Of a stretch of DNA of 64,000 nt, positions 5,272 to 17,285 are shown one piece after another (position 1 is the stretch's first letter; every line of letters begins with the position of its first letter). The notes beneath the pieces are model-generated. The model saw only the letters and a program-made list of their open reading frames with translations, was not told the origin of the DNA and searched no databases. Source of the stretch: Chloroflexi bacterium HGW-Chloroflexi-6 (GTDB lineage: Bacteria > Chloroflexota > Anaerolineae > Anaerolineales > Villigracilaceae). A program made the position numbers and the translations under genes. The stretch is taken from assembly GCA_002840685.1 (NCBI GenBank), contig PHBU01000002.1:186001-250000 (forward strand), written 5' to 3'.

Positions 5272-6057
5272 TTAAGCTGTGCCCTTTACTGCCCACGCTC
5301 TCGCGTTAAGAGAGATTGACCCATCATCACCCATGGGTAACGAATTACGCAATTTATCTTCAAGTTTTTGCCTGTTTATTGGATCCAGACCCATTGTGTA
5401 AGTGGGGGCTGGACCAACATTGCCGAGAAATGGTTGCCAATAATCATCGAAGTTTTGGAAAACAGTTTTTACTTCAATTGCTGTTGTCTCAACCTGCTTC
5501 AAGCCGACTTCTTGGGCAAGAGATTCGAGTTGTCCTTCCCGGCAAAGTGGAAACCGGATGCCCTCGTCAAGATCATGGGCGTTATTGTCAAGTTCTACGG
5601 CGGCATCCCAAAAATGGCGTAACATTTGCATGCCATGGGCATAATCCCAAAGAAATATCCCGATTTTGCCGCCAGGTTTTGTTACTCTCAGCATTTCCGA
5701 GATTGCGACTTTGGGTTGTGGTACAAAATTGAGAACCAGCCCAGACACAGCGGCGTCAATGGAATTCGAATCCAGTTCCAACGATTGGGCCAAACCAACT
5801 CTAAATTGTACAATAGGATTGGTTATCGAACGCCGTGCGTGTGAAATAAAATCGCTGGAAGAATCGATAGAAATAATTTCTTTTGGCTGATATGTTTCTA
5901 AAATATGTGCGGTCAGTGAACCTGTGCCGCAACCTACGTCCAGCCAACTGCGAGCAGGGCTGACCGCAAGCCAGCTCAAAAACTTTTGAGCAACAAGAGC
6001 GCTCCAACGCCCCATAAACCTTTCGTAGGCAATTCCACTTAACCATGGATCATTCAT
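5272..6057 (-). CDS. class I SAM-dependent methyltransferase
   Basis: WLDVGCGTGSLTAHILE motif I; MLRVTKPGGKIGIFLWDY. Confidence 0.9.
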   Translation of the reverse strand: MNDPWLSGIAYERFMGRWSALVAQKFLSWLAVSPARSWLDVGCGTGSLTAHILETYQPKEIISIDSSSDFISHARRSITNPIVQFRVGLAQSLELDSNSIDAAVSGLVLNFVPQPKVAISEMLRVTKPGGKIGIFLWDYAHGMQMLRHFWDAAVELDNNAHDLDEGIRFPLCREGQLESLAQEVGLKQVETTAIEVKTVFQNFDDYWQPFLGNVGPAPTYTMGLDPINRQKLEDKLRNSLPMGDDGSISLNARAWAVKGTA

Positions 6058-6101: not shown

Positions 6102-6180
6102 GCCCAACGTTTTGCCATGTGGGGGACTGAGGCTGGGGCGGACGTGGTCTCTGGTAGTTCATTCAAGGCTGGCCGACAAG
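6102..6180 (-). repeat. degenerate attC-like intergenic repeat, copy G
   Basis: Minus strand ends ...GGCAAAACGTTGGGCTG (R'-like GTTGGGC). Contains GACCACGTCCGCCCCAGCCTCAG, which resembles the core of the better copies. Confidence 0.35.
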
Positions 6181-6199
6181 CGCCATCCCAGGCGATTTT

Positions 6200-6651: not shown

Positions 6652-6726
6652 GCCAATTAAATCGGGCACTTCTTGATTTGTCAGAAGAACCTAGTTTTGC
6701 AGGGTCGGACGTCAGTTATGGCGGGT
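6652..6726 (-). repeat. degenerate attC-like intergenic repeat, copy F
   Basis: gtcagttatggcgggttttacc aligns with gccagccaatggtgggctttacc of copy E; other end gccaattaaa lies about 60 nt upstream of the 6589 start. Confidence 0.35.
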
Positions 6727-6840
6727 TTTACCCGCGGATTTGGCGGAAAAAGGCACACTGTGTAACGAGAAAAGTGTAGCATGAAGCCAGATCTATTTGC
6801 AAGACATTCCTGATTCACCGAGACGACAACATCGTTGTGG
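6719..6840. repeat. ~120 bp direct repeat, left copy
   Basis: gtgtaacgagaaaagtgtagcatgaagccagatctatttgcaagacattcctgattc is shared almost base for base with 13856-13978. Confidence 0.95.
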
Positions 6841-6932
6841 AATCGACTCAATGGGTAGTCAAGTTCCACTTACATTGCCCATGTCCGCAAGCGTGCAATC
6901 TGGCAAGCAGTGGTTTCAAAACCGTCACCAAG

Positions 6933-7992: not shown

Positions 7993-9294
7993 CTATGGCT
8001 TTGAATACTGTAGGAGCCAATCATAAAACGCCGGGTCAGAATAAGTGTCGGTCCAGGTATCGTGATCGTGCCCATCTAAAACGGTGAACCGGATATTGCC
8101 GCCCAGTCTCTTCAATGCGTTGGCCGGTTGTTCCCCTGCCGCCAGCGGAACAATCAAATCATCTGTGCCATGAATAGCCCAGACCGGCAGGTTCTTAATA
8201 CGGTCCAGCATGGGAATCTGATCGGCGTCGAGCCAGGCCGAGAGCGGTGCGATGGCGGCAAAGGTCTCGGGTTGGTGTATGGCGAAGCGGTAGGTTGCCT
8301 CGCCGCCCAAGCTCAAACCGGTTAAGTAGATGCGCTTCGGATCCGCGCGATAGGTTGATTGCATCTCAGCCAGCACCCCATCCAAGTACTCAACGGGAAA
8401 CACATTCTGCGATGTATTCAGCAACGGCGCGACGATGATGAACGGCAGCGGCCCTTTCTCGCGGATCATCATAAACGGGCTGGCTTTGGCAAGCAGGTAG
8501 ATATTATCTCCGCGATCCCCGGTTCCGTGCAGGAAGAAGAGCAATGGCCAGCGCTTGGTTGGATTGTCTTCATACCCCTCGGGCAGGTAGAGCATGTAGC
8601 CCGACCCATATTGCTGTAAGTTTTTAGTCTGATATTCTTTGGAAAAGATTCGCTGGCTGGTCAGATACTGGCTGTAATCTTTGTAGACGTAGAAGGATTG
8701 GTCGCGGGTCAGGATGGATGGCCCATTCAGTTCGCTTCCGCTCGGCAGATCAATGCCACCGCGAAGTTGCCGATTTTCGCGATCATAGGCAAACCGGAAG
8801 GTGCCTGTGCCGCTGGGTCCACTCGACCCGCTGGCGAGATCACCTTCCCATTCAATCGCGGGTACCGCCCCGGGAACAACCTTGAATTGAATCTCTTTGA
8901 CCCAGTATGGATATTGAAGATTGGTGCCACTCCAGAGAAAGGCTTTTCCACCTTGCGCCGATATCTCCTGAATAAATAACACGCCCTTGTGATCTTTCTT
9001 GACTGGCGGATCGTAGTTATACCCTTCCCACCTGCCGAGAAAGGCCGCTAATTCTGGGGCAAGGCCTGGGGCGGCCGGCGAAACCGAAATATTGCCAAAA
9101 ATTAGATACGCGTAGGGGTCGTTTTTGACTGGCGAGTGCACCGCCTCGAAATCGGTGATCATGAAGTCCTGACTGGATGTACCCTCTGGCGTGGGAGTCA
9201 TCGTCGGCGTTGGCGTTGGCGTCGGCGCACATGCGGCGGCCAAGGCAATGATTACGACAATTGTAAATAGCTTGGCTGTGAGCGCGTTTTTCAT
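7993..9294 (-). CDS. lipoprotein; C-terminal alpha/beta-hydrolase (esterase/feruloyl-esterase-like)
   Basis: Lipobox-type N-terminus LAAACAPTPTPTPTMTPTPEG; LYLPEGYEDNPTKRWPLLFFLHGTGDRGDN; GLSLGGEATYRFA nucleophile elbow; AIHGTDDLIVP; DGHDHDTW. Confidence 0.85.
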   Translation of the reverse strand: MKNALTAKLFTIVVIIALAAACAPTPTPTPTMTPTPEGTSSQDFMITDFEAVHSPVKNDPYAYLIFGNISVSPAAPGLAPELAAFLGRWEGYNYDPPVKKDHKGVLFIQEISAQGGKAFLWSGTNLQYPYWVKEIQFKVVPGAVPAIEWEGDLASGSSGPSGTGTFRFAYDRENRQLRGGIDLPSGSELNGPSILTRDQSFYVYKDYSQYLTSQRIFSKEYQTKNLQQYGSGYMLYLPEGYEDNPTKRWPLLFFLHGTGDRGDNIYLLAKASPFMMIREKGPLPFIIVAPLLNTSQNVFPVEYLDGVLAEMQSTYRADPKRIYLTGLSLGGEATYRFAIHQPETFAAIAPLSAWLDADQIPMLDRIKNLPVWAIHGTDDLIVPLAAGEQPANALKRLGGNIRFTVLDGHDHDTWTDTYSDPAFYDWLLQYSKP

Positions 9295-9356
9295 CGGAAA
9301 TTTCCTTCGTATTGCAAAACGTTTTGATGTGGATGGTGTGGAAAATGGCATAAGCA

Positions 9357-9517
9357 GCCCAGCGGTTTGCGGCTTGCCCGCAGGGTAAGCCCGCACGCTC
9401 CTGATGGGACTGGCCCTAAGCCAGGCGTGGACTCTGTTTGGGAGCAGAAAAATCTCGAAGCCAGCCAAGACAATTACATGGAGACCTCGTGTCACACATT
9501 GCTGTTAATCGGTGGGC
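9357..9517 (-). repeat. attC-like intergenic repeat, copy A
   Basis: Ends gcccagc...ggtgggc; conserved core ggcgtggactctgtttgggagcagaaaaatctcgaagccagcc at 9423-9466. Confidence 0.8.
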
Positions 9518-9575: not shown

Positions 9576-10142
9576 CTAGGATTTGACATAGCGTTCAGGT
9601 TTGGTCTGGAAGGTTCTCCCATCCGGGTTCGGTTTATGATCCATTAATTTCTGCCAGGTTTCTCTCGTCCAATACAAGATATCAGTTCCACTTCCTCTAA
9701 CCTTGATAATCAAGGGATCGAACACATCATCAAAACTTCCTATAAACTCCTGATCATTTGCCGTTTTCATAATTATCATAGAATAGTTAGCCGTCCATGC
9801 CTGAAAACCGTTGTATAGCAACCCCACCAAACCAAGAACGGCGGCGATGAAGCCGAGGCCGGTGCACATATCATCCAGCCTGGCAACTTCACCAATGATA
9901 AAAACCAACAAGCCGAGGCCAAAAGTAATAGATAAGCCGATTAGCCTATTTTTGAGCGAAGCACGCAGATTCGCTTCCCAGCAATCACGGCAAAAGGCTA
10001 CTTCCATCGGGGCAAAGTCTCCGTAGGTTTGTGTGCCAGAAACAAGATTACCTTCCTGCTTGAGGTTGGATTTAAGTAGTTTCCCTGTCACTATTTCAAA
10101 GTGACGACCCTCTTTATCTTGACCGCACACATCGCAAGTCAT
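9576..10142 (-). CDS. hypothetical protein with N-terminal Cys motif and two TM segments
   Basis: MTCDVCGQDKEGRHFEIVTGK... then LLVFIIGEVARLDDMCTGLGFIAAVLGLVGLLYNG. Confidence 0.7.
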   Translation of the reverse strand: MTCDVCGQDKEGRHFEIVTGKLLKSNLKQEGNLVSGTQTYGDFAPMEVAFCRDCWEANLRASLKNRLIGLSITFGLGLLVFIIGEVARLDDMCTGLGFIAAVLGLVGLLYNGFQAWTANYSMIIMKTANDQEFIGSFDDVFDPLIIKVRGSGTDILYWTRETWQKLMDHKPNPDGRTFQTKPERYVKS

Positions 10143-10281
10143 GGTGTTTTCTCCTTATTCGTGTGATTTTGCATTTAATCGCGCTGTAGATTCAGCTCGC
10201 AAGCGGTTGTTGGGTAGCCTCATGCCTTTTAAAGCAACTTCTTCATTCTCTCGCATGGAACAGACTGTCATCAGCACTGGG

Positions 10282-10803
10282 TTATTTGCCGATCTCCAGC
10301 GTAATAAACTTGATGCCATCCTTGTTAAAGCAACTTACCTGTCCTATCAGGCTGCCACCACTAAAGCTTACCGAGCCAACAGCAGTAAAACGTCCATCGT
10401 TGCAGGTTTCAAAGTTCACCCGCTGCTCATTGACACTGACCACACCATTGATATACCAGGTATCTTGACTCCCTTTGATGCAATTGTAGTGATCGGTAAT
10501 AGTCGGGCCGGTGGTGCTCAATTCGGCTGTACCATTGCTGTTTACCCGAAGTGTAAGCGGTTGCTCAACTCGACAGGATGTATCTGAAGATCCAAAGCTG
10601 ATTTTGACGCCATCGCTCTCGAAAACTTGCACGGATGTGGCGTTGTCTAACCCTGCGGCATTCTCGGGTGGCGCGGGGGAGGGAGCTGGCGTAGGAAGAT
10701 CCAATTCATTGTCGATTTCATCCCAGCCGGGCGCATTACAAGCCAACATCGCAAGTAATAGCACTGCCAGTGTCACCCATGGAATATAAAAATGATTACG
10801 CAT
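10282..10803 (-). CDS. hypothetical lipoprotein
   Basis: Lipobox LLAMLACNAPG; 173 aa. Confidence 0.75.
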   Translation of the reverse strand: MRNHFYIPWVTLAVLLLAMLACNAPGWDEIDNELDLPTPAPSPAPPENAAGLDNATSVQVFESDGVKISFGSSDTSCRVEQPLTLRVNSNGTAELSTTGPTITDHYNCIKGSQDTWYINGVVSVNEQRVNFETCNDGRFTAVGSVSFSGGSLIGQVSCFNKDGIKFITLEIGK

Positions 10804-10823: not shown

Positions 10824-11012
10824 GGCGTGGACTCTGCCTAGGCGCAAAAAACTCGTACCAGTCTGTCACCTGCCCCGCTGAGTTGCGCGGGGAGTGCCGC
10901 CTGGCCAGGGGGAAAATGCTTGTAAATCGCGCACGCCGCATACGCGGCAGTTCCCAGCAAGACAATTATATAGGCGAGTTCGTGTCGCATACACTGCTGT
11001 TAATCGGCGGGC
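10824..11012 (-). repeat. attC-like intergenic repeat, copy B (R' end degenerate)
   Basis: Core ggcgtggactctgcctaggcgcaaaaaactcg; shares gccgcatacgcggcagtt...agcaagacaat with copy C and cactgctgttaatcggcgggc with A and D. Confidence 0.8.
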
Positions 11013-11047
11013 GTGTTTGACTGGTTTCACCAATTGCCGTGCAAGCA

Positions 11048-11854
11048 CTAATTAATTGCCATAAGGAATTGTTCATAATTAGAATCTAGATATGCATAAT
11101 CGGTTGTGTAAATTTCTAAATGACCTTCATCAATGTTCGCTTGAAGACGCTTATCGCCGTTTGCCGCGCCTTGACGCAGATAATCTGCCATGTATGCAAT
11201 ACGTGATTTGGTAGCCTGAATAATTTTAGAACGCTCACGTAATCCATATTCATCGCAGAAAAGACGAACGCGGCGACATTGTTCTTGTATTGTCCCGTAA
11301 TTTTCGGGGTTGGATGGGTCAGTTATTGGAGCAAATCGGTAAAGGGCATATGCTAAATCCCATTCTCGATTACCAGGGTGTGCATTGTCGAAGTCAATAA
11401 CACCAATTAATTTTCCTTTGTCAAATACGCAATTGTATGGCGCAAAATCACCATGACAAATTACTTCGATTGGTTCTTGCGTTGGAGATTGCCACCCTGA
11501 CTGATAAATTTGTGCTATATCCTCTGTTGCATCGTGAATACGTCGAAGGAGTCGCGCTGCCGAAATTAATACTTCGTCAGTGCGGAGAAACTCAGGAAGT
11601 GGATAGTGCCCGACAAGCCCAGGTATAAAAGTCAAGATTTCACGTCCCTGTTCATCAAAGCCTAAAGGTGTTGGTACTTCTTGAATGCCTTTGGCCCGAA
11701 GATGTGCAAGCAGCATGTGGACTTGTTTTGTCCAAAAACCAACATCTCGACGAACAGTGTTTCCAATACGTGAAACGGCGGTCATGTTTCCACCCGCCAA
11801 CTTTTCTTCAGATTCCATTATGTGTATCCATTTGTTACCAAAAGTAGCAGGCAA
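11048..11854 (-). CDS. APH-family phosphotransferase (true start possibly 11818)
   Basis: EVICHGDFAPYNCVFDKGKLIGVIDFDNAHPGNREWDLAYALYR: Brenner motif HGDxxxxN and DFD. Confidence 0.93.
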   Translation of the reverse strand: MPATFGNKWIHIMESEEKLAGGNMTAVSRIGNTVRRDVGFWTKQVHMLLAHLRAKGIQEVPTPLGFDEQGREILTFIPGLVGHYPLPEFLRTDEVLISAARLLRRIHDATEDIAQIYQSGWQSPTQEPIEVICHGDFAPYNCVFDKGKLIGVIDFDNAHPGNREWDLAYALYRFAPITDPSNPENYGTIQEQCRRVRLFCDEYGLRERSKIIQATKSRIAYMADYLRQGAANGDKRLQANIDEGHLEIYTTDYAYLDSNYEQFLMAIN

Positions 11855-11856
11855 GC

Positions 11857-12025
11857 GCCCAATGGTTTCTGTTGCTGGCGCTCAGCACAGGCGTGGACTC
11901 TGCCCGGGAGCAGAAAAATCTCGAAGCCAGCCTGCCGAAGGTGCCGCCAGGCCAGGCGAAAATGCTTGTAAACCGCTCACGCCGCATACGCGGCAGTTTC
12001 CGGCAAGACAATCACTCGGTAGGCG
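11857..12025 (-). repeat. attC-like intergenic repeat, copy C; overlaps the 3' end of the upstream gene
   Basis: Ends gcccaatgg...ggtaggc; core ggcgtggactctgcccgggagcagaaaaatctcgaagccagcc at 11889-11932. Confidence 0.8.
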
Positions 12026-12989
12026 TACTTTGCACCTTGATAAATACTTTGTTGTTATATTCCCAATCATAATTTCCCTGGACACGAAATTGCATACTAT
12101 TGTTATTTTGTTGGAAATGTAGTTCTACCGGAAACGAGATTAACTCAAACACATTATCTGCCAAACATTGCATGGGCATATAGGGCCAAAATAAGGAGGT
12201 ATACAGACATTTGTTGCTATCGTCATAATGAATGCTCCATTCTTCATTCTCGGCTCCATTTTGCCATCGATATGTACCAAGGTAGTGCTTCATATCACAC
12301 GGATAAGACTTTACCTTTCCATACTCTAAACCCAAGTATGCAATGACTTCATGAACGTACTGACCCCAATGCTCTTCGCTTGTGTCTATTTTTATTTTCG
12401 AGCACAGCAATCGATCAAATATTGACATCATCTTGATTTGTTCATATTCAATAGCGGCAAACATACTGTTTTCATCTACATATTCATGCTCTTTAAAATA
12501 CACATGCAGATCATCTCTTCTCAGCATTAGTTCTCGCCACCATTGCCCCCGCGCGATGAATGCTTTTTCCAAGCTTTTGCGTAGATCAGGGCGATACAGA
12601 AAGACAATGACGGGATTTAGTTCGTTGATGATCTCTATTACCTGCGAAGAATATGCAACGATCTCATCTTCATTCCAGAGACTATGAATAAAATACCGGT
12701 CGTATGCATGCAAAAAACATCCTTCGGTAACACACACTTTGCCAGACGACTTGATTGAATCTCGGAATGTCATCCATTTCTGCAACATCCCAATCCTATT
12801 TAATTCCATACCTTCAGCGGTATTCAATTTGCCAAAGCTGAATTCATTCTGACGGATGGGATGATTTTCGCACTCTTCATGCAGCCAGTATGTATCATGA
12901 GCCAGGTTGATTTGTTTATATACACTTTTCGAAAGACTCGATTTTCCCACTGAGCAGTGTCCATCAACGATGATTAGTTTTGTGTTCAT
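12012..12989 (-). CDS. P-loop kinase-like protein with extra C-terminal domain
   Basis: LIIVDGHCSVGKSSLSKSVYKQ Walker A; no family I can name confidently. Confidence 0.75.
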   Translation of the reverse strand: MNTKLIIVDGHCSVGKSSLSKSVYKQINLAHDTYWLHEECENHPIRQNEFSFGKLNTAEGMELNRIGMLQKWMTFRDSIKSSGKVCVTEGCFLHAYDRYFIHSLWNEDEIVAYSSQVIEIINELNPVIVFLYRPDLRKSLEKAFIARGQWWRELMLRRDDLHVYFKEHEYVDENSMFAAIEYEQIKMMSIFDRLLCSKIKIDTSEEHWGQYVHEVIAYLGLEYGKVKSYPCDMKHYLGTYRWQNGAENEEWSIHYDDSNKCLYTSLFWPYMPMQCLADNVFELISFPVELHFQQNNNSMQFRVQGNYDWEYNNKVFIKVQSTPTE

Positions 12990-13032
12990 TCAGAATCTCC
13001 ATCGATGTTTGCCAAATCCCCTGTGTTGGGGC

Positions 13033-13326
13033 GCCTAAAGGGGGGCGGCCTACCCGGTGGGTTGCCGTGCATGCTGCTGTGGGGACTGGCGATGATGTGA
13101 GCCGGGCGTGGACTCTGCCTGGGAGCAGAAAAACCCGAAGCCAGCCTGTCACCTGTTCTGTTGAGTTGCGCGGGGAGTGCTGCCAGCCTGCCCCGTGTTA
13201 CGATGTAACCATCTCACGTAACCGCATAGGCCGCTGCGGATGGGAGATCAGGTTTTGTCAGGATTTACCATCGAAACAATTACATAGGCGATTTCGTGCC
13301 ACACACACTGCTGTTAATCGGTGGGC
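13033..13326 (-). repeat. attC-like intergenic repeat, copy D (long, possibly composite)
   Basis: Ends gcctaaa...ggtgggc; core gccgggcgtggactctgcctgggagcagaaaaacccgaagccagcc at 13101-13146. Confidence 0.75.
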
Positions 13327-13354
13327 GCATTTGTTGACAGTGTGTAAGCATCCA

Positions 13355-13708
13355 TTAATGTGTTGAATAATGAAGGATCACATAGCCCGTCACTGAAACG
13401 AGGATGGCTGCTGTGACAACTGCCCAAGCAACAAATTCTGTCGGCCGTTCTCTTATTCGCCATTCATTGAAGGTTGCTTCGTTTCGAAAGCGCGGACCGT
13501 TAGCTGCGCCACTCCACCGGTTGCCGCGCAGGGATCCGATAAAAACAACGCTTAGTATCAGAACGACGATGCCCGCCCATAAAAGCGAGATGCCCGCTGT
13601 ACCGTAGGTTGGAACTCCGGCAAGTGTGAAAAAGCCGATTACCACAATAGCCAGCCCAAAATATGTACCGAGCACGATCAAAGCGAATTTTCGTAGTTTG
13701 CGTAGCAT
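13355..13708 (-). CDS. hypothetical membrane protein, 117 aa
   Basis: Three hydrophobic segments; flanked on both sides by attC-like repeats. Confidence 0.65.
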   Translation of the reverse strand: MLRKLRKFALIVLGTYFGLAIVVIGFFTLAGVPTYGTAGISLLWAGIVVLILSVVFIGSLRGNRWSGAANGPRFRNEATFNEWRIRERPTEFVAWAVVTAAILVSVTGYVILHYSTH

Positions 13709-13770: not shown

Positions 13771-13855
13771 GCCCAATGGCTGGCTTTACCTGCGCTGAGC
13801 CGGGCGTGGACTCTGCCTGGGAGCAGAAAAAACTCGAAGCCAGCCAATGGTGGGC
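13771..13855 (-). repeat. attC-like intergenic repeat, copy E (best-formed, 85 bp)
   Basis: gcccaatggctggctt ... gaagccagccaatggtgggc: arms GCCCA-(AT)-GGCTGGCTT and GCCCA-(CCATT)-GGCTGGCTT form a bulged imperfect palindrome. Confidence 0.85.
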
Positions 13856-13978
13856 TTTACCGGTGGATTTGGCGGAAAAAGTCACAGTGTGTAACGAGAA
13901 AAGTGTAGCATGAAGCCAGATCTATTTGCAAGACATTCCTGATTCTCCGAAACAACAACATCGTTGTGGGATGGTAGT
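13856..13978. repeat. ~120 bp direct repeat, right copy
   Basis: See 6719-6840; same orientation, about 7.1 kb apart. Confidence 0.95.
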
Positions 13979-13982
13979 CTAT

Positions 13983-14025
13983 CAATTGACGCCTGTCCCG
14001 GCGTAAAAAGGGACAGGTGTCAATT
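13983..14025. repeat. REP/MITE-like hairpin
   Basis: caattgacgcctgtccc-ggcgtaaaaa-gggacaggtgtcaattg: 17 bp arms with one mismatch. Confidence 0.8.
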
Positions 14026-14206
14026 GAAAAGGCGTCCCCCGAATGGAGAACGCCTTGTTTTGGGTTAAAACTCGGACCGAATTTTGTCGTTTTTGGCATT
14101 AATTCTGCGATTTGCTCAGGTTCCGGCCCGTTTATGCGCTCCGGCGGGATATTGTGATGGGCGGGTTTCTGAGGACGTGGTGTTTAGGCGCATTTGGTTA
14201 TCTTAT

Positions 14207-14956
14207 TCACGCCTTTTGAATAACTATTTTTCGTTGAAGTTCATGATAGCGCCTTGTTGAATTCCAGAAGAAAAATATTCGATTAAATCTGGTGGAGTAT
14301 TGATGCGCTAGCGCCAATACTGTTAAATCAACGGATGAAGGAATACGTAAATCATCCGCAACGATTAATAACCACATTTCCGAACATTTGGATTTGTAAT
14401 TGTCCAGTTTTTTCTCTTTTTGGTTAATTATTTCTTGAAGATATTCCGGAGTAATCTCAGGAATCCAACCGGCACTTGAACTACGCCATTTGTTTTCTTT
14501 TCCATTTGGATGAGCGTAGATATGGAGCATCACAATTTCATTTGGAAAATACTCCGAATTTTCTCTATTTCGCTTTCGTGTGATTGGAGTGCCCGGCTCT
14601 ATCGGGGTCGTAATAACTAAGTGTACAACTCTTTCGGCAAGGCGGTCTACATCTTTTCTACCCAGCTTAGTTTTGTGATTGAAAAGAACCTGAACAAGAA
14701 GAGGCTGGCTGTGGTCTTTTAAATATAAACCATTTGCCTTGCTAACAACCTTCTGGCCCAAGCTATCTTGAGCTTGCAAGGATGTGCCATCCGTGGGACC
14801 AGGCTGAAATATTTCAGTATGTTCAATTCCTAGAAGGTTGTCTTGGGTATGCACGATAAAATCTGGCTTCTCAAATACTTCAATTTCGCCATCTGGAAAG
14901 AAGTTGCAAACTTCTTTGAAATGTTTTAGATGGATAAATTCTCGAATTTTGTCCAT
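14207..14956 (-). CDS. hypothetical protein, possible PD-(D/E)XK-like fold
   Basis: FEKPDFIVHTQDNLLGIEHTEIF resembles a degenerate PD...ExT/K motif; two-gene unit with 14960-15349. Confidence 0.5.
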   Translation of the reverse strand: MDKIREFIHLKHFKEVCNFFPDGEIEVFEKPDFIVHTQDNLLGIEHTEIFQPGPTDGTSLQAQDSLGQKVVSKANGLYLKDHSQPLLVQVLFNHKTKLGRKDVDRLAERVVHLVITTPIEPGTPITRKRNRENSEYFPNEIVMLHIYAHPNGKENKWRSSSAGWIPEITPEYLQEIINQKEKKLDNYKSKCSEMWLLIVADDLRIPSSVDLTVLALAHQYSTRFNRIFFFWNSTRRYHELQRKIVIQKA

Positions 14957-14959
14957 TTT

Positions 14960-15358
14960 TCAATCGATTGAATATGCTTCAAGAAATACTTTTTTGACTT
15001 CTGTTGGGGTTTTGCATTTCTCTAGCTTAATTTGTATCTCCAGTATCTTTTCGGGTTTAATTTCATTGGTCGAGAAATCAACCCCAACGCCAATGTGTTT
15101 CAAGGCTTTACGCCGAAACCTCGCCATGTCTTCCTGATATAGCGTAAGTGGTGTTCGGGCCAAATCTTGGGAATTAGTGAGCACTATACAGCAGAAGTTT
15201 TCATTCTCTTGTTGAATATTTAGTGAGAGAATATGTTCCTGAGCTGCGTTTTGCCAATTTACCAGACAATCATACAACCCTCGCATAGTAGGATTTTCAA
15301 AATAGAAAAAGCTGGATTCATATTCTTTTTGTTCGGACATAAAAAAGACTTTTTTCAC
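14960..15358 (-). CDS. hypothetical protein (132 aa, likely start within first codons)
   Basis: Adjacent, 3 bp gap to the next ORF on the same strand. Confidence 0.5.
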   Translation of the reverse strand: MKKVFFMSEQKEYESSFFYFENPTMRGLYDCLVNWQNAAQEHILSLNIQQENENFCCIVLTNSQDLARTPLTLYQEDMARFRRKALKHIGVGVDFSTNEIKPEKILEIQIKLEKCKTPTEVKKVFLEAYSID

Positions 15359-15542
15359 TCGGTGTTAAAAAGAAAATTCAGGATAAAAAGTGCGTAACTA
15401 TGTATTTAGCGGCCATTTCGCCGGTTTATGGCTTATGGGCGGCCAAAGGTTAAAATTGAATAAGCTATTCTGTGTATTTTACTGCTTTTTGCGTAAATCC
15501 CTGGACCGAACCTGGCGAAAAAATTAGTTTTTGTATCGAAAC

Positions 15543-15605: not shown

Positions 15606-16004
15606 TTAGCGTCGTTCGGTAACGTGGAGATTGTAGTTGTCGGCTTTGAAGTACTCCATCGCAAAGCGGGCGGCATCTTCAGAGTCGTAGGGGGCGCAGC
15701 TGAAAACATCCAGATAGATGGCTTTGCTGGCATCGGCGAAGTGGGCCGAAATCAGGGATGTCTCGATCAACTGGGTCATGCTGAAACCCTGCACGCGCGG
15801 GTCGTCGCCAAAGAAAACCACCTGGGTCTCGCCGTAGCGTCGCATTTGGATGCGGTCGCACAGAATTTTCACAAATTCGCGGATGGCCTCGGCGTCTTGC
15901 ATCAGGGCCAGGTCGCAGTTGTACAGGTCAATACTTGTCGACACGCCCCAGCAGGTGGGGGCTTCGATACCATTAAGGGCTGGGGCTTGGGTCAGGTTAC
16001 CCAT
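15606..16004 (-). CDS. S-adenosylmethionine decarboxylase-family paralog (divergent SpeD homolog)
   Basis: GFSMTQLIETSLISAHFADASKAIYLDVFSCAPYD aligns with the SpeD core (AESHxSxHxxPE...DxFTC), but the ESH serine region is altered; start overlaps the speE stop. Confidence 0.75.
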   Translation of the reverse strand: MGNLTQAPALNGIEAPTCWGVSTSIDLYNCDLALMQDAEAIREFVKILCDRIQMRRYGETQVVFFGDDPRVQGFSMTQLIETSLISAHFADASKAIYLDVFSCAPYDSEDAARFAMEYFKADNYNLHVTERR

Positions 16005-16827
16005 GTAGTTCTCTCCTAAAGAATTCCGGCAAGGCAAACGCTGCGCGGTGAACGTCCGGGTTGATGTAGTTCATTTGTCCCGGCGGATAGGCGCGGGTCA
16101 GTCCGTTCTGCCAGGGGGTGTTGGATGCGTACATGAAACCGATCCCGCCGCCGGGGTAGGTGGGGACCTGGGCGTAGTAGTAATCCGGGCTCTTGGCCAT
16201 GCTGCGCGCGAAGCCGTAAATCTCTTTGATCAGGGCGGTGTCAAAGTAGGGCTGTTCGCACTGGGTGGCGAGCGCCCCGCCAGGGTTGAGCGCGCCCCAC
16301 ATCAGCCCGAAGAACTCTTCGCTGAACAGGCGCTCGGCCATGCCGATCGGGTCGGTGGTGTCTGAAACGATCACATCAAAGGTGTTGCCGGGGATCTTGA
16401 GATATTCGAAGGCATCCTGCACGACCAGCTTGGCGCGCGGATCGCTCCACGGGTCGCCAAAGCCGGGGAAGTACTGGCGCGAATACTCGACCACTTTACG
16501 ATCCAGTTCGCAGACCACGACTTCTTCCATCGAAGGGTAACGCAATAGCTGCTGCAGCGAACCGCCATCGCCGCCGCCAACCACCAGGGCGCGTTTGGGG
16601 TTTTCCACCGCCAGGGCCGGGACGTGGGTGATCATTTCGTGGTAGCCCATGTTGTCCTGCTCGGTCAGCTGGATGATGCCGTCCAGGATGAGCGCGTTAC
16701 CGAAGAATTCGGTCTCGACCACTTGCAGGTACTGGTAATCGGTCTGTTCTTCGACCAGCACGCGCTTGACGTGCAAGGCTTTGCGGTAGTAGGAGTGTAG
16801 CTCTTCGGTCAGCCAGATATTGTTCAT
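15997..16827 (-). CDS. speE: spermidine synthase
   Basis: NALILDGIIQLTEQDNMGYHEMITHVP..ALVVGGGDGGSLQQLLRYP...VIVSDTTDPIGMAE. Confidence 0.95.
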   Translation of the reverse strand: MNNIWLTEELHSYYRKALHVKRVLVEEQTDYQYLQVVETEFFGNALILDGIIQLTEQDNMGYHEMITHVPALAVENPKRALVVGGGDGGSLQQLLRYPSMEEVVVCELDRKVVEYSRQYFPGFGDPWSDPRAKLVVQDAFEYLKIPGNTFDVIVSDTTDPIGMAERLFSEEFFGLMWGALNPGGALATQCEQPYFDTALIKEIYGFARSMAKSPDYYYAQVPTYPGGGIGFMYASNTPWQNGLTRAYPPGQMNYINPDVHRAAFALPEFFRRELHG

Positions 16828-17285
16828 AGCGAGATCTCATGAACAACCGGCCGGGTTGCCGCCTGGAAGGCCGCATCGCGGTCGATCAGGCGCACGGTGT
16901 AAGATTTGGCGCCAAAGGCAGCCTTGATCGTGTCCAGCAGTGGGGTGAGGTCCATGCCCAGATTGCAAGTGAACAGATCGATGGCGCAATAGCCGTATTC
17001 AGGCCAGGCATGCAGGCTGGCATGCGATTCGGCCAGCAGCAGAAAGCAGGTAAAACCGTGCGGGCTGAATTTGTAGAAGCCTTCATCGACAACGGTCAGG
17101 CCGCTTTCGCGGACCGCGCCTGAGAAGAGGGCATAGGACCGCTCGCTGTCAAGTAAGATCTCATTGGAGCAACCGGAAAGGTCGCAAATATAGTGTTCCC
17201 CGAGCCGCAGGGTAGTGTTCAATCGTGCCTCCAGATTAGAAATTATATAAGTCACGGATTTTATCCGAGCATGGCCCGGCGTCAA
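16824..17285 (-). CDS. speD: S-adenosylmethionine decarboxylase proenzyme (class 1b)
   Basis: LLAESHASLHAWPEYGYCAIDLFTCNLGMDLTPLLDTIKAAFGA. Confidence 0.92.
   Translation of the reverse strand: MTPGHARIKSVTYIISNLEARLNTTLRLGEHYICDLSGCSNEILLDSERSYALFSGAVRESGLTVVDEGFYKFSPHGFTCFLLLAESHASLHAWPEYGYCAIDLFTCNLGMDLTPLLDTIKAAFGAKSYTVRLIDRDAAFQAATRPVVHEISL

Follow-up and report, generated by a model that had tools for sequence, protein, structure and literature searches.

The sedentary chromosomal integrons of Vibrio carry attC sites of the VCR type. These are imperfect palindromes with RYYYAAC/GTTRRRY boxes, covarying arms and extra bases on one side only; the sets are homogeneous within a lineage and the sites lie at the 3' ends of co-directional ORFs. 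Clusters of attC sites lacking an integron-integrase (CALINs) have also been described, for which intI loss has been put forward as one origin (PMC8618304, PMC9024848). Chloroflexota are listed among the integron-bearing phyla (PMC8618304, PMC9668308). The locus described here lies in a window of 64,000 nucleotides, the whole stretch of DNA analysed, from Chloroflexi bacterium HGW-Chloroflexi-6, a member of the Anaerolineales. As both integrons in Chloroflexota and CALINs are already known (PMC8618304, PMC9668308, PMC9024848), we regard it as a fossil member of a described group.

The sites of the Anaerolineales repeat family to which this locus belongs share the features of the VCR type listed above. 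In contrast to the Vibrio sites, however, the Anaerolineales type is 129-135 nt long and has a conserved loop core of its own, and the unit on which this study centres (13771-13855) is truncated and mutated. As in a CALIN, there is an attC-related array with no adjoining intI, but the window locus differs in retaining a recognisable attI/intI-promoter remnant, so that its origin can be read, and in that most of its sites are too decayed for the attC model. The phylum, an intI above the TIGR02249 cutoff and arrays of attC are held in common with the described Chloroflexota integrons (PMC8618304, PMC9668308). The data make it very probable that the 85 bp unit is a degenerate attC remnant, consisting of the R' half and the loop core, in a sedentary chromosomal integron that has lost intI and has kept an attI remnant, co-directional genes and decaying attC sites.

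The unit reads GCCCA-AT-GGCTGGCTT ... AAGCCAGCC-AATGG-TGGGC and from the right, on the other strand, its arms are GCCCA-CCATT-GGCTGGCTT. The arms pair over 5 bp plus 9 bp with a 2/5 internal loop between them, exactly as a preliminary description of this DNA had set out, and the outer boxes deviate from consensus in the way that it claimed (GCCCAAT for RYYYAAC and GGTGGGC for GTTRRRY). Both strands fold as ssDNA: the + strand at -19.8 kcal/mol (z -2.31; equalled by 4 of 200 dinucleotide shuffles) and the - strand at -18.2 kcal/mol (z -2.40; equalled by 2 of 200). This is modest support, the unit having been chosen for its palindromic look. The preliminary description had also held that its stem would be refuted if other copies lacked it, and the stem is absent from the three other window copies folded: 11857-11943 (shuffle z +0.77), 9364-9479 (z -1.36, for a stretch that begins 7 nt inside its own box at 9357) and 13033-13170 (z +1.00). 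The stem as drawn is thereby refuted, but the relationship to attC is not. Fold energy was considered as a criterion for attC and set aside, as the z values of intact attC sites run from +0.16 to -2.98 and the energy neither proves nor refutes membership.

The repeat is present in 88 of 150 genomes of the same family, and an integron integrase above the TIGR02249 curated cutoff is found in 84 of the 150. Repeat and integrase share a contig in several of these genomes, and there are arrays that adjoin a true intI (for example G006:C25, G101:C3, G034:C28 and G122:C105). More than 100 repeats of 129-135 nt with the core of the unit were present in the loci fetched from relatives, and they take the form RYYYAAC-GG-TTTGCGTTACC...loop...GGTGCACGCTTTGTTRRRY. 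Alignment of 38 of the relatives' sites, with the home genome excluded, showed pairing in 94.4% of stem cells, 110 stem cells with a double change compared with 42.7 in shuffles, and a covariation score of 0.309 (shuffled, 0.108; slid controls, 0.065 or less). The stem has two extra unpaired bases on one side, the 3' half of the strand read (the + sense of the window). Extra unpaired stem bases on one side are a mark of the recombining bottom strand of attC (PMC8946536), which makes the + strand of the window the bottom strand, and this is consistent with the location of all the array ORFs on the - strand. Judged on its sequence, the repeat family is integron attC.

The boxes of neighbouring sites point the same way. 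Where sites stand in tandem, 41 of 54 neighbour pairs have a right box in the first site that exactly complements the left box in the second (shuffled expectation: mean 9.3, maximum 18 in 2000 shuffles), and the two boxes of a single site are complementary in this way in 8 of 71. Such a swap is the scar that strand exchange by IntI inside the R' box would be expected to leave. Arrays in the home genome itself gave 3 of 10, which would be expected of older or decayed arrays. Genome searches and fetched stretches gave about ten copies of the central part of the repeat in the home genome, including further window copies at 9413, 10824, 11890 and 13105. The copies are mosaic and scattered over several contigs, and the window contains two copies of another short repeat block; this is what might be seen if the repeat were a dispersed intergenic element of the MITE or REP type, inserting between genes and no more than attC-like. 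The box-swap between neighbours strongly disfavours such an element, however, as do the covarying attC stem with AAC/GTT boxes, the adjacency to intI and the attI remnant described below, and we consider it improbable in the extreme.

What the unit itself retains of an attC site was seen with a covariance model from which the home genome was left out. The model matches 13771-13873 with a score of 28.3 bits (E 2.3e-5 for a search of 253 kb; E 7.9e-7 when 9 kb was searched with filters off), so there is similarity in sequence and structure to bona fide attC sites. The left box, the inner arm and the loop core are matched and the right arm is not. At 13771-13777 (+ strand) is the R'-side outer box GCCCAAT, a canonical RYYYAAC in which the triplet AAC has become AAT. 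It belongs to a surviving R'-side half (13771-13844, + strand) that carries the inner arm GGCTGGCTTTACCTGCGCTGAG and the conserved loop (VTS) core GGCGTGGACTCTGCCTGGGAGCAGAAAAAACTCGAAGCCAG of the Anaerolineales attC. The AAC/GTT cleavage triplets are missing from both boxes of the unit (GCCCAAT and GGTGGGC); among relatives' sites AAC is kept in 93 of 107 and GTT in 98 of 107. Nor are there paired L''/L' inner arms beside the outer boxes, since the R'-side arm is there and the true L''/R'' arm is gone.

The right-hand part of the hairpin has a different source. The outer right arm AATGGTGGGC lies in a separate repeat block (13845-13975, no strand assigned). A further copy of this block, with no attC core, is at 6718-6843, and the same-genus genome G047 has an orthologous block. 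Over 126 bp the two window copies (6718-6843 and 13846-13972) are 92% identical, and the block occurs once at the same flank in G047. The inner sequence AAGCCAGCC is found as loop core in many long relatives, where the left arm is unable to pair with it; it is part of the loop core and not the L'' arm. With its outer right arm in a foreign repeat block and its inner right sequence in the loop core, the stem is chimeric. The 5 bp plus 9 bp bulged stem therefore fails as attC architecture, real sites here being about 129 nt long. The unit is not the best-formed one either, as had been proposed, because intact sites exist in the same genome outside the window (for example G000:C1:22685-22813). 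In calling the element attC-like, the preliminary description was right about its kind, given the covarying stem, the boxes, the intI adjacency, the box-swap and the model match, and wrong about the anatomy of the hairpin drawn.

These findings also bear on whether the 85 bp unit could be a short attC that is complete and functional, with a bulged stem of its own. The stem does exist and is somewhat better than shuffles, and a short loop is permitted in attC sites generally. The cleavage triplet is AAT and the right box begins GGT, however, the stem is missing from the other copies tested, the outer right arm sits in a block whose other copy has no attC with it, and many long relatives have AAGCCAGCC in the loop core. 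A short functional site is thus highly unlikely. Having lost its L''/R'' arm, the remnant is probably not efficiently recombinable.

Beyond the repeat block, at 13976-14191 (+ strand), is the R''-side half of an attC type. It ends in GGTTTCTGAGGACGTGGTGTTTAGGC and is homologous to the distal attC of the integron on contig C17 of the home genome, where the box is GTTAGCC. We suggest, with moderate confidence because the two halves do not pair, that 13771-14191 represents the remains of the first cassette's attC. Two other candidates in this region gained no support. One was a second attC (of the L015:14010 type) with its left half at 13837-13890, which remains doubtful: the alignment score of 33 equals the best of 500 shuffles, and by orthology with G047 the region is conserved flank. 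The other was a sigma-70-like promoter seen by eye in the block 13845-13975, which a promoter scan did not support.

The run of genes leading away from the attI remnant is on the - strand and the attC remnants between them are read on the + strand. The first cassette-type ORF after the attI remnant (14960-15358) and the second ORF, ahead of the first attC (14207-14956), have no assigned function. The unit is followed by a cassette-type ORF of 117 aa without a confident family match (13355-13708). Between this ORF and 12012-12989 is a long degenerate attC (13031-13328) with right box GGTGGGC and an uncertain left box (GCCTAAA). ORF 12012-12989 is cassette-type with a weak kinase-like match (PRK06761); it is absent from the rest of the genus and there is a 68% identical copy in another genus. 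No recognisable attC was found flanking the kinase-like cassette homologue in G064. It is separated from an APH-family phosphotransferase ORF (PF01636; 11048-11854), also cassette-type, by a degenerate attC at 11857-12025 with left box GCCCAAT and right box GGTAGGC. A degenerate attC without its left end (10824-11013) lies between 11048-11854 and 10282-10803. The last of these and 9576-10142 are cassette-type ORFs with no assigned function, and a degenerate attC with left box GCCCAGCGGTTTGCGG (9357-9517) lies between 9576-10142 and ORF 7993-9495. Finally, a possible attC remnant with an intact left box, GCCCAACG, was seen by eye at 6102-6190 and has no covariance-model match. A search for defence systems among eight array ORFs returned nothing but methyltransferase-type matches for 5272-6057.

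The remnants in the window are clear by alignment. One window site passes the covariance model (E 2e-5) and the other copies score just 12-15 bits. In the main array three left boxes are clear, at 9357, 11857 and 13771, and none of them keeps AAC. The low scores of the other copies, the uncertain left box of the 13031 copy, the lack of a left box in the 10824 copy and the missing triplets and L''/R'' arm of the unit itself count against the reading as a decayed integron.

At the 5' end of the array is a remnant of attI and the intI promoter (15384-15485, - strand), which has a crossover-type box, GTTACGC, at 15392-15398. It aligns with the region upstream of the intact intI in G047 with scores of 36.5 and 30.5, where the best of 200 shuffles gave 15 and 17; the corresponding box in G047 is GTTGAAC. 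The intI expected to the right of the remnant is absent, and no intI gene was found in the window. The G047 integrase contains the stretch KYPNAGREWIWQYVFPAS, which we take to be the integron-integrase-specific insert.

G047 has the same locus. Its flanks match the window at 93% (17403-15514), 87% (14177-13850) and 78% (3108-3), but the arrays have no sequence in common apart from repeats and the genes are wholly different. Two S-adenosylmethionine decarboxylase genes (15606-16037 and 16824-17285) flank a spermidine synthase gene (15997-16827) in the window. Read from the sequence, AAC is kept in six of the seven left boxes of G047 at this locus. The G047 contigs with an intact intI end before any array. 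The right end of G047 contig C136 (L158) and the left end of C87 (L072) are similar (AAAGTGCGCCAC..), which suggests that there may be an insertion element in the first attC of the array in G047.

Elsewhere in the home genome, intact attC sites were detected with the covariance model on contig C1 (22685, 23513, 28010 and others) and contig C2 (67073 and others), but no integron integrase above cutoff was found in the genome. Contig C17 carries a truncated, frame-broken intI remnant (L022 9930-10385; fragment 9948-10364) with at least four attC sites adjoining, to the left of the fragment. The fragment matches the G047 integrase at 39% identity over its N-terminal 140 residues and then stops. 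On this sequence evidence C17 is a second decayed integron.

In an ancestor, IntI would have bound the folded bottom strand (the + strand of the window) and cut at AA/C in the R' box. Cassettes would have been inserted at attI, so that the minus-strand ORFs read away from it, and the window ORFs would, from established integron biology, have been captured in this way. After the loss of intI the attC sites would have drifted. Alternatively, the array could still be active in trans, with its cassettes open to excision or capture by an incoming IntI. CALIN cassettes can be mobilised by exogenous IntI (PMC9668308), every cassette differs from those of G047 at the same locus, and the box is intact (GCCCAAC) in the possible remnant at 6102. 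Against this, the home genome has no intact intI, the clear left boxes have all lost AAC, and the turnover of genes can predate the loss of intI. We therefore think continued activity rather unlikely; the array may be within reach of IntI in trans, but its sites look weak.

In sequence records the attC core is overwhelmingly from Anaerolineales or other Chloroflexota assemblies. It also occurs in assemblies labelled Methylococcales, Bacteroidales, Chitinophagales, Ignavibacteriales and Aequorivita (L107, L109, L115, L122 and L135), reflecting either cassette transfer or binning contamination. Three sites of the Anaerolineales type are present in a 59.6 kb contig filed as viral (IMG/VR; L139 7611-9691), which are either phage-borne cassettes or the result of a misfiled contig. 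None of the papers covered by the literature search describes this type of attC or reports how frequent it is in this Anaerolineales family.

A modest palindrome read by eye thus pointed to a real integron by way of the wrong stem. The window locus is a readable case of integron death, in which attI and cassettes stay, intI is gone and the attC boxes drift. We put forward, tentatively, the wider possibility that this family is a large integron reservoir that has been little described, with one shared 129-nt attC type and a full-strength integrase in 84 of the 150 species genomes sampled, and that the cassettes of a sedentary integron at the window locus were wholly turned over between sister species before loss of intI stranded it, possibly with an IntI still serving it in trans. 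It has been proposed that sul4 had its original host among the Chloroflexota (PMC12772301). An integrase and a shared attC type in over half of the family's sampled genomes would bear on where environmental gene cassettes come from.
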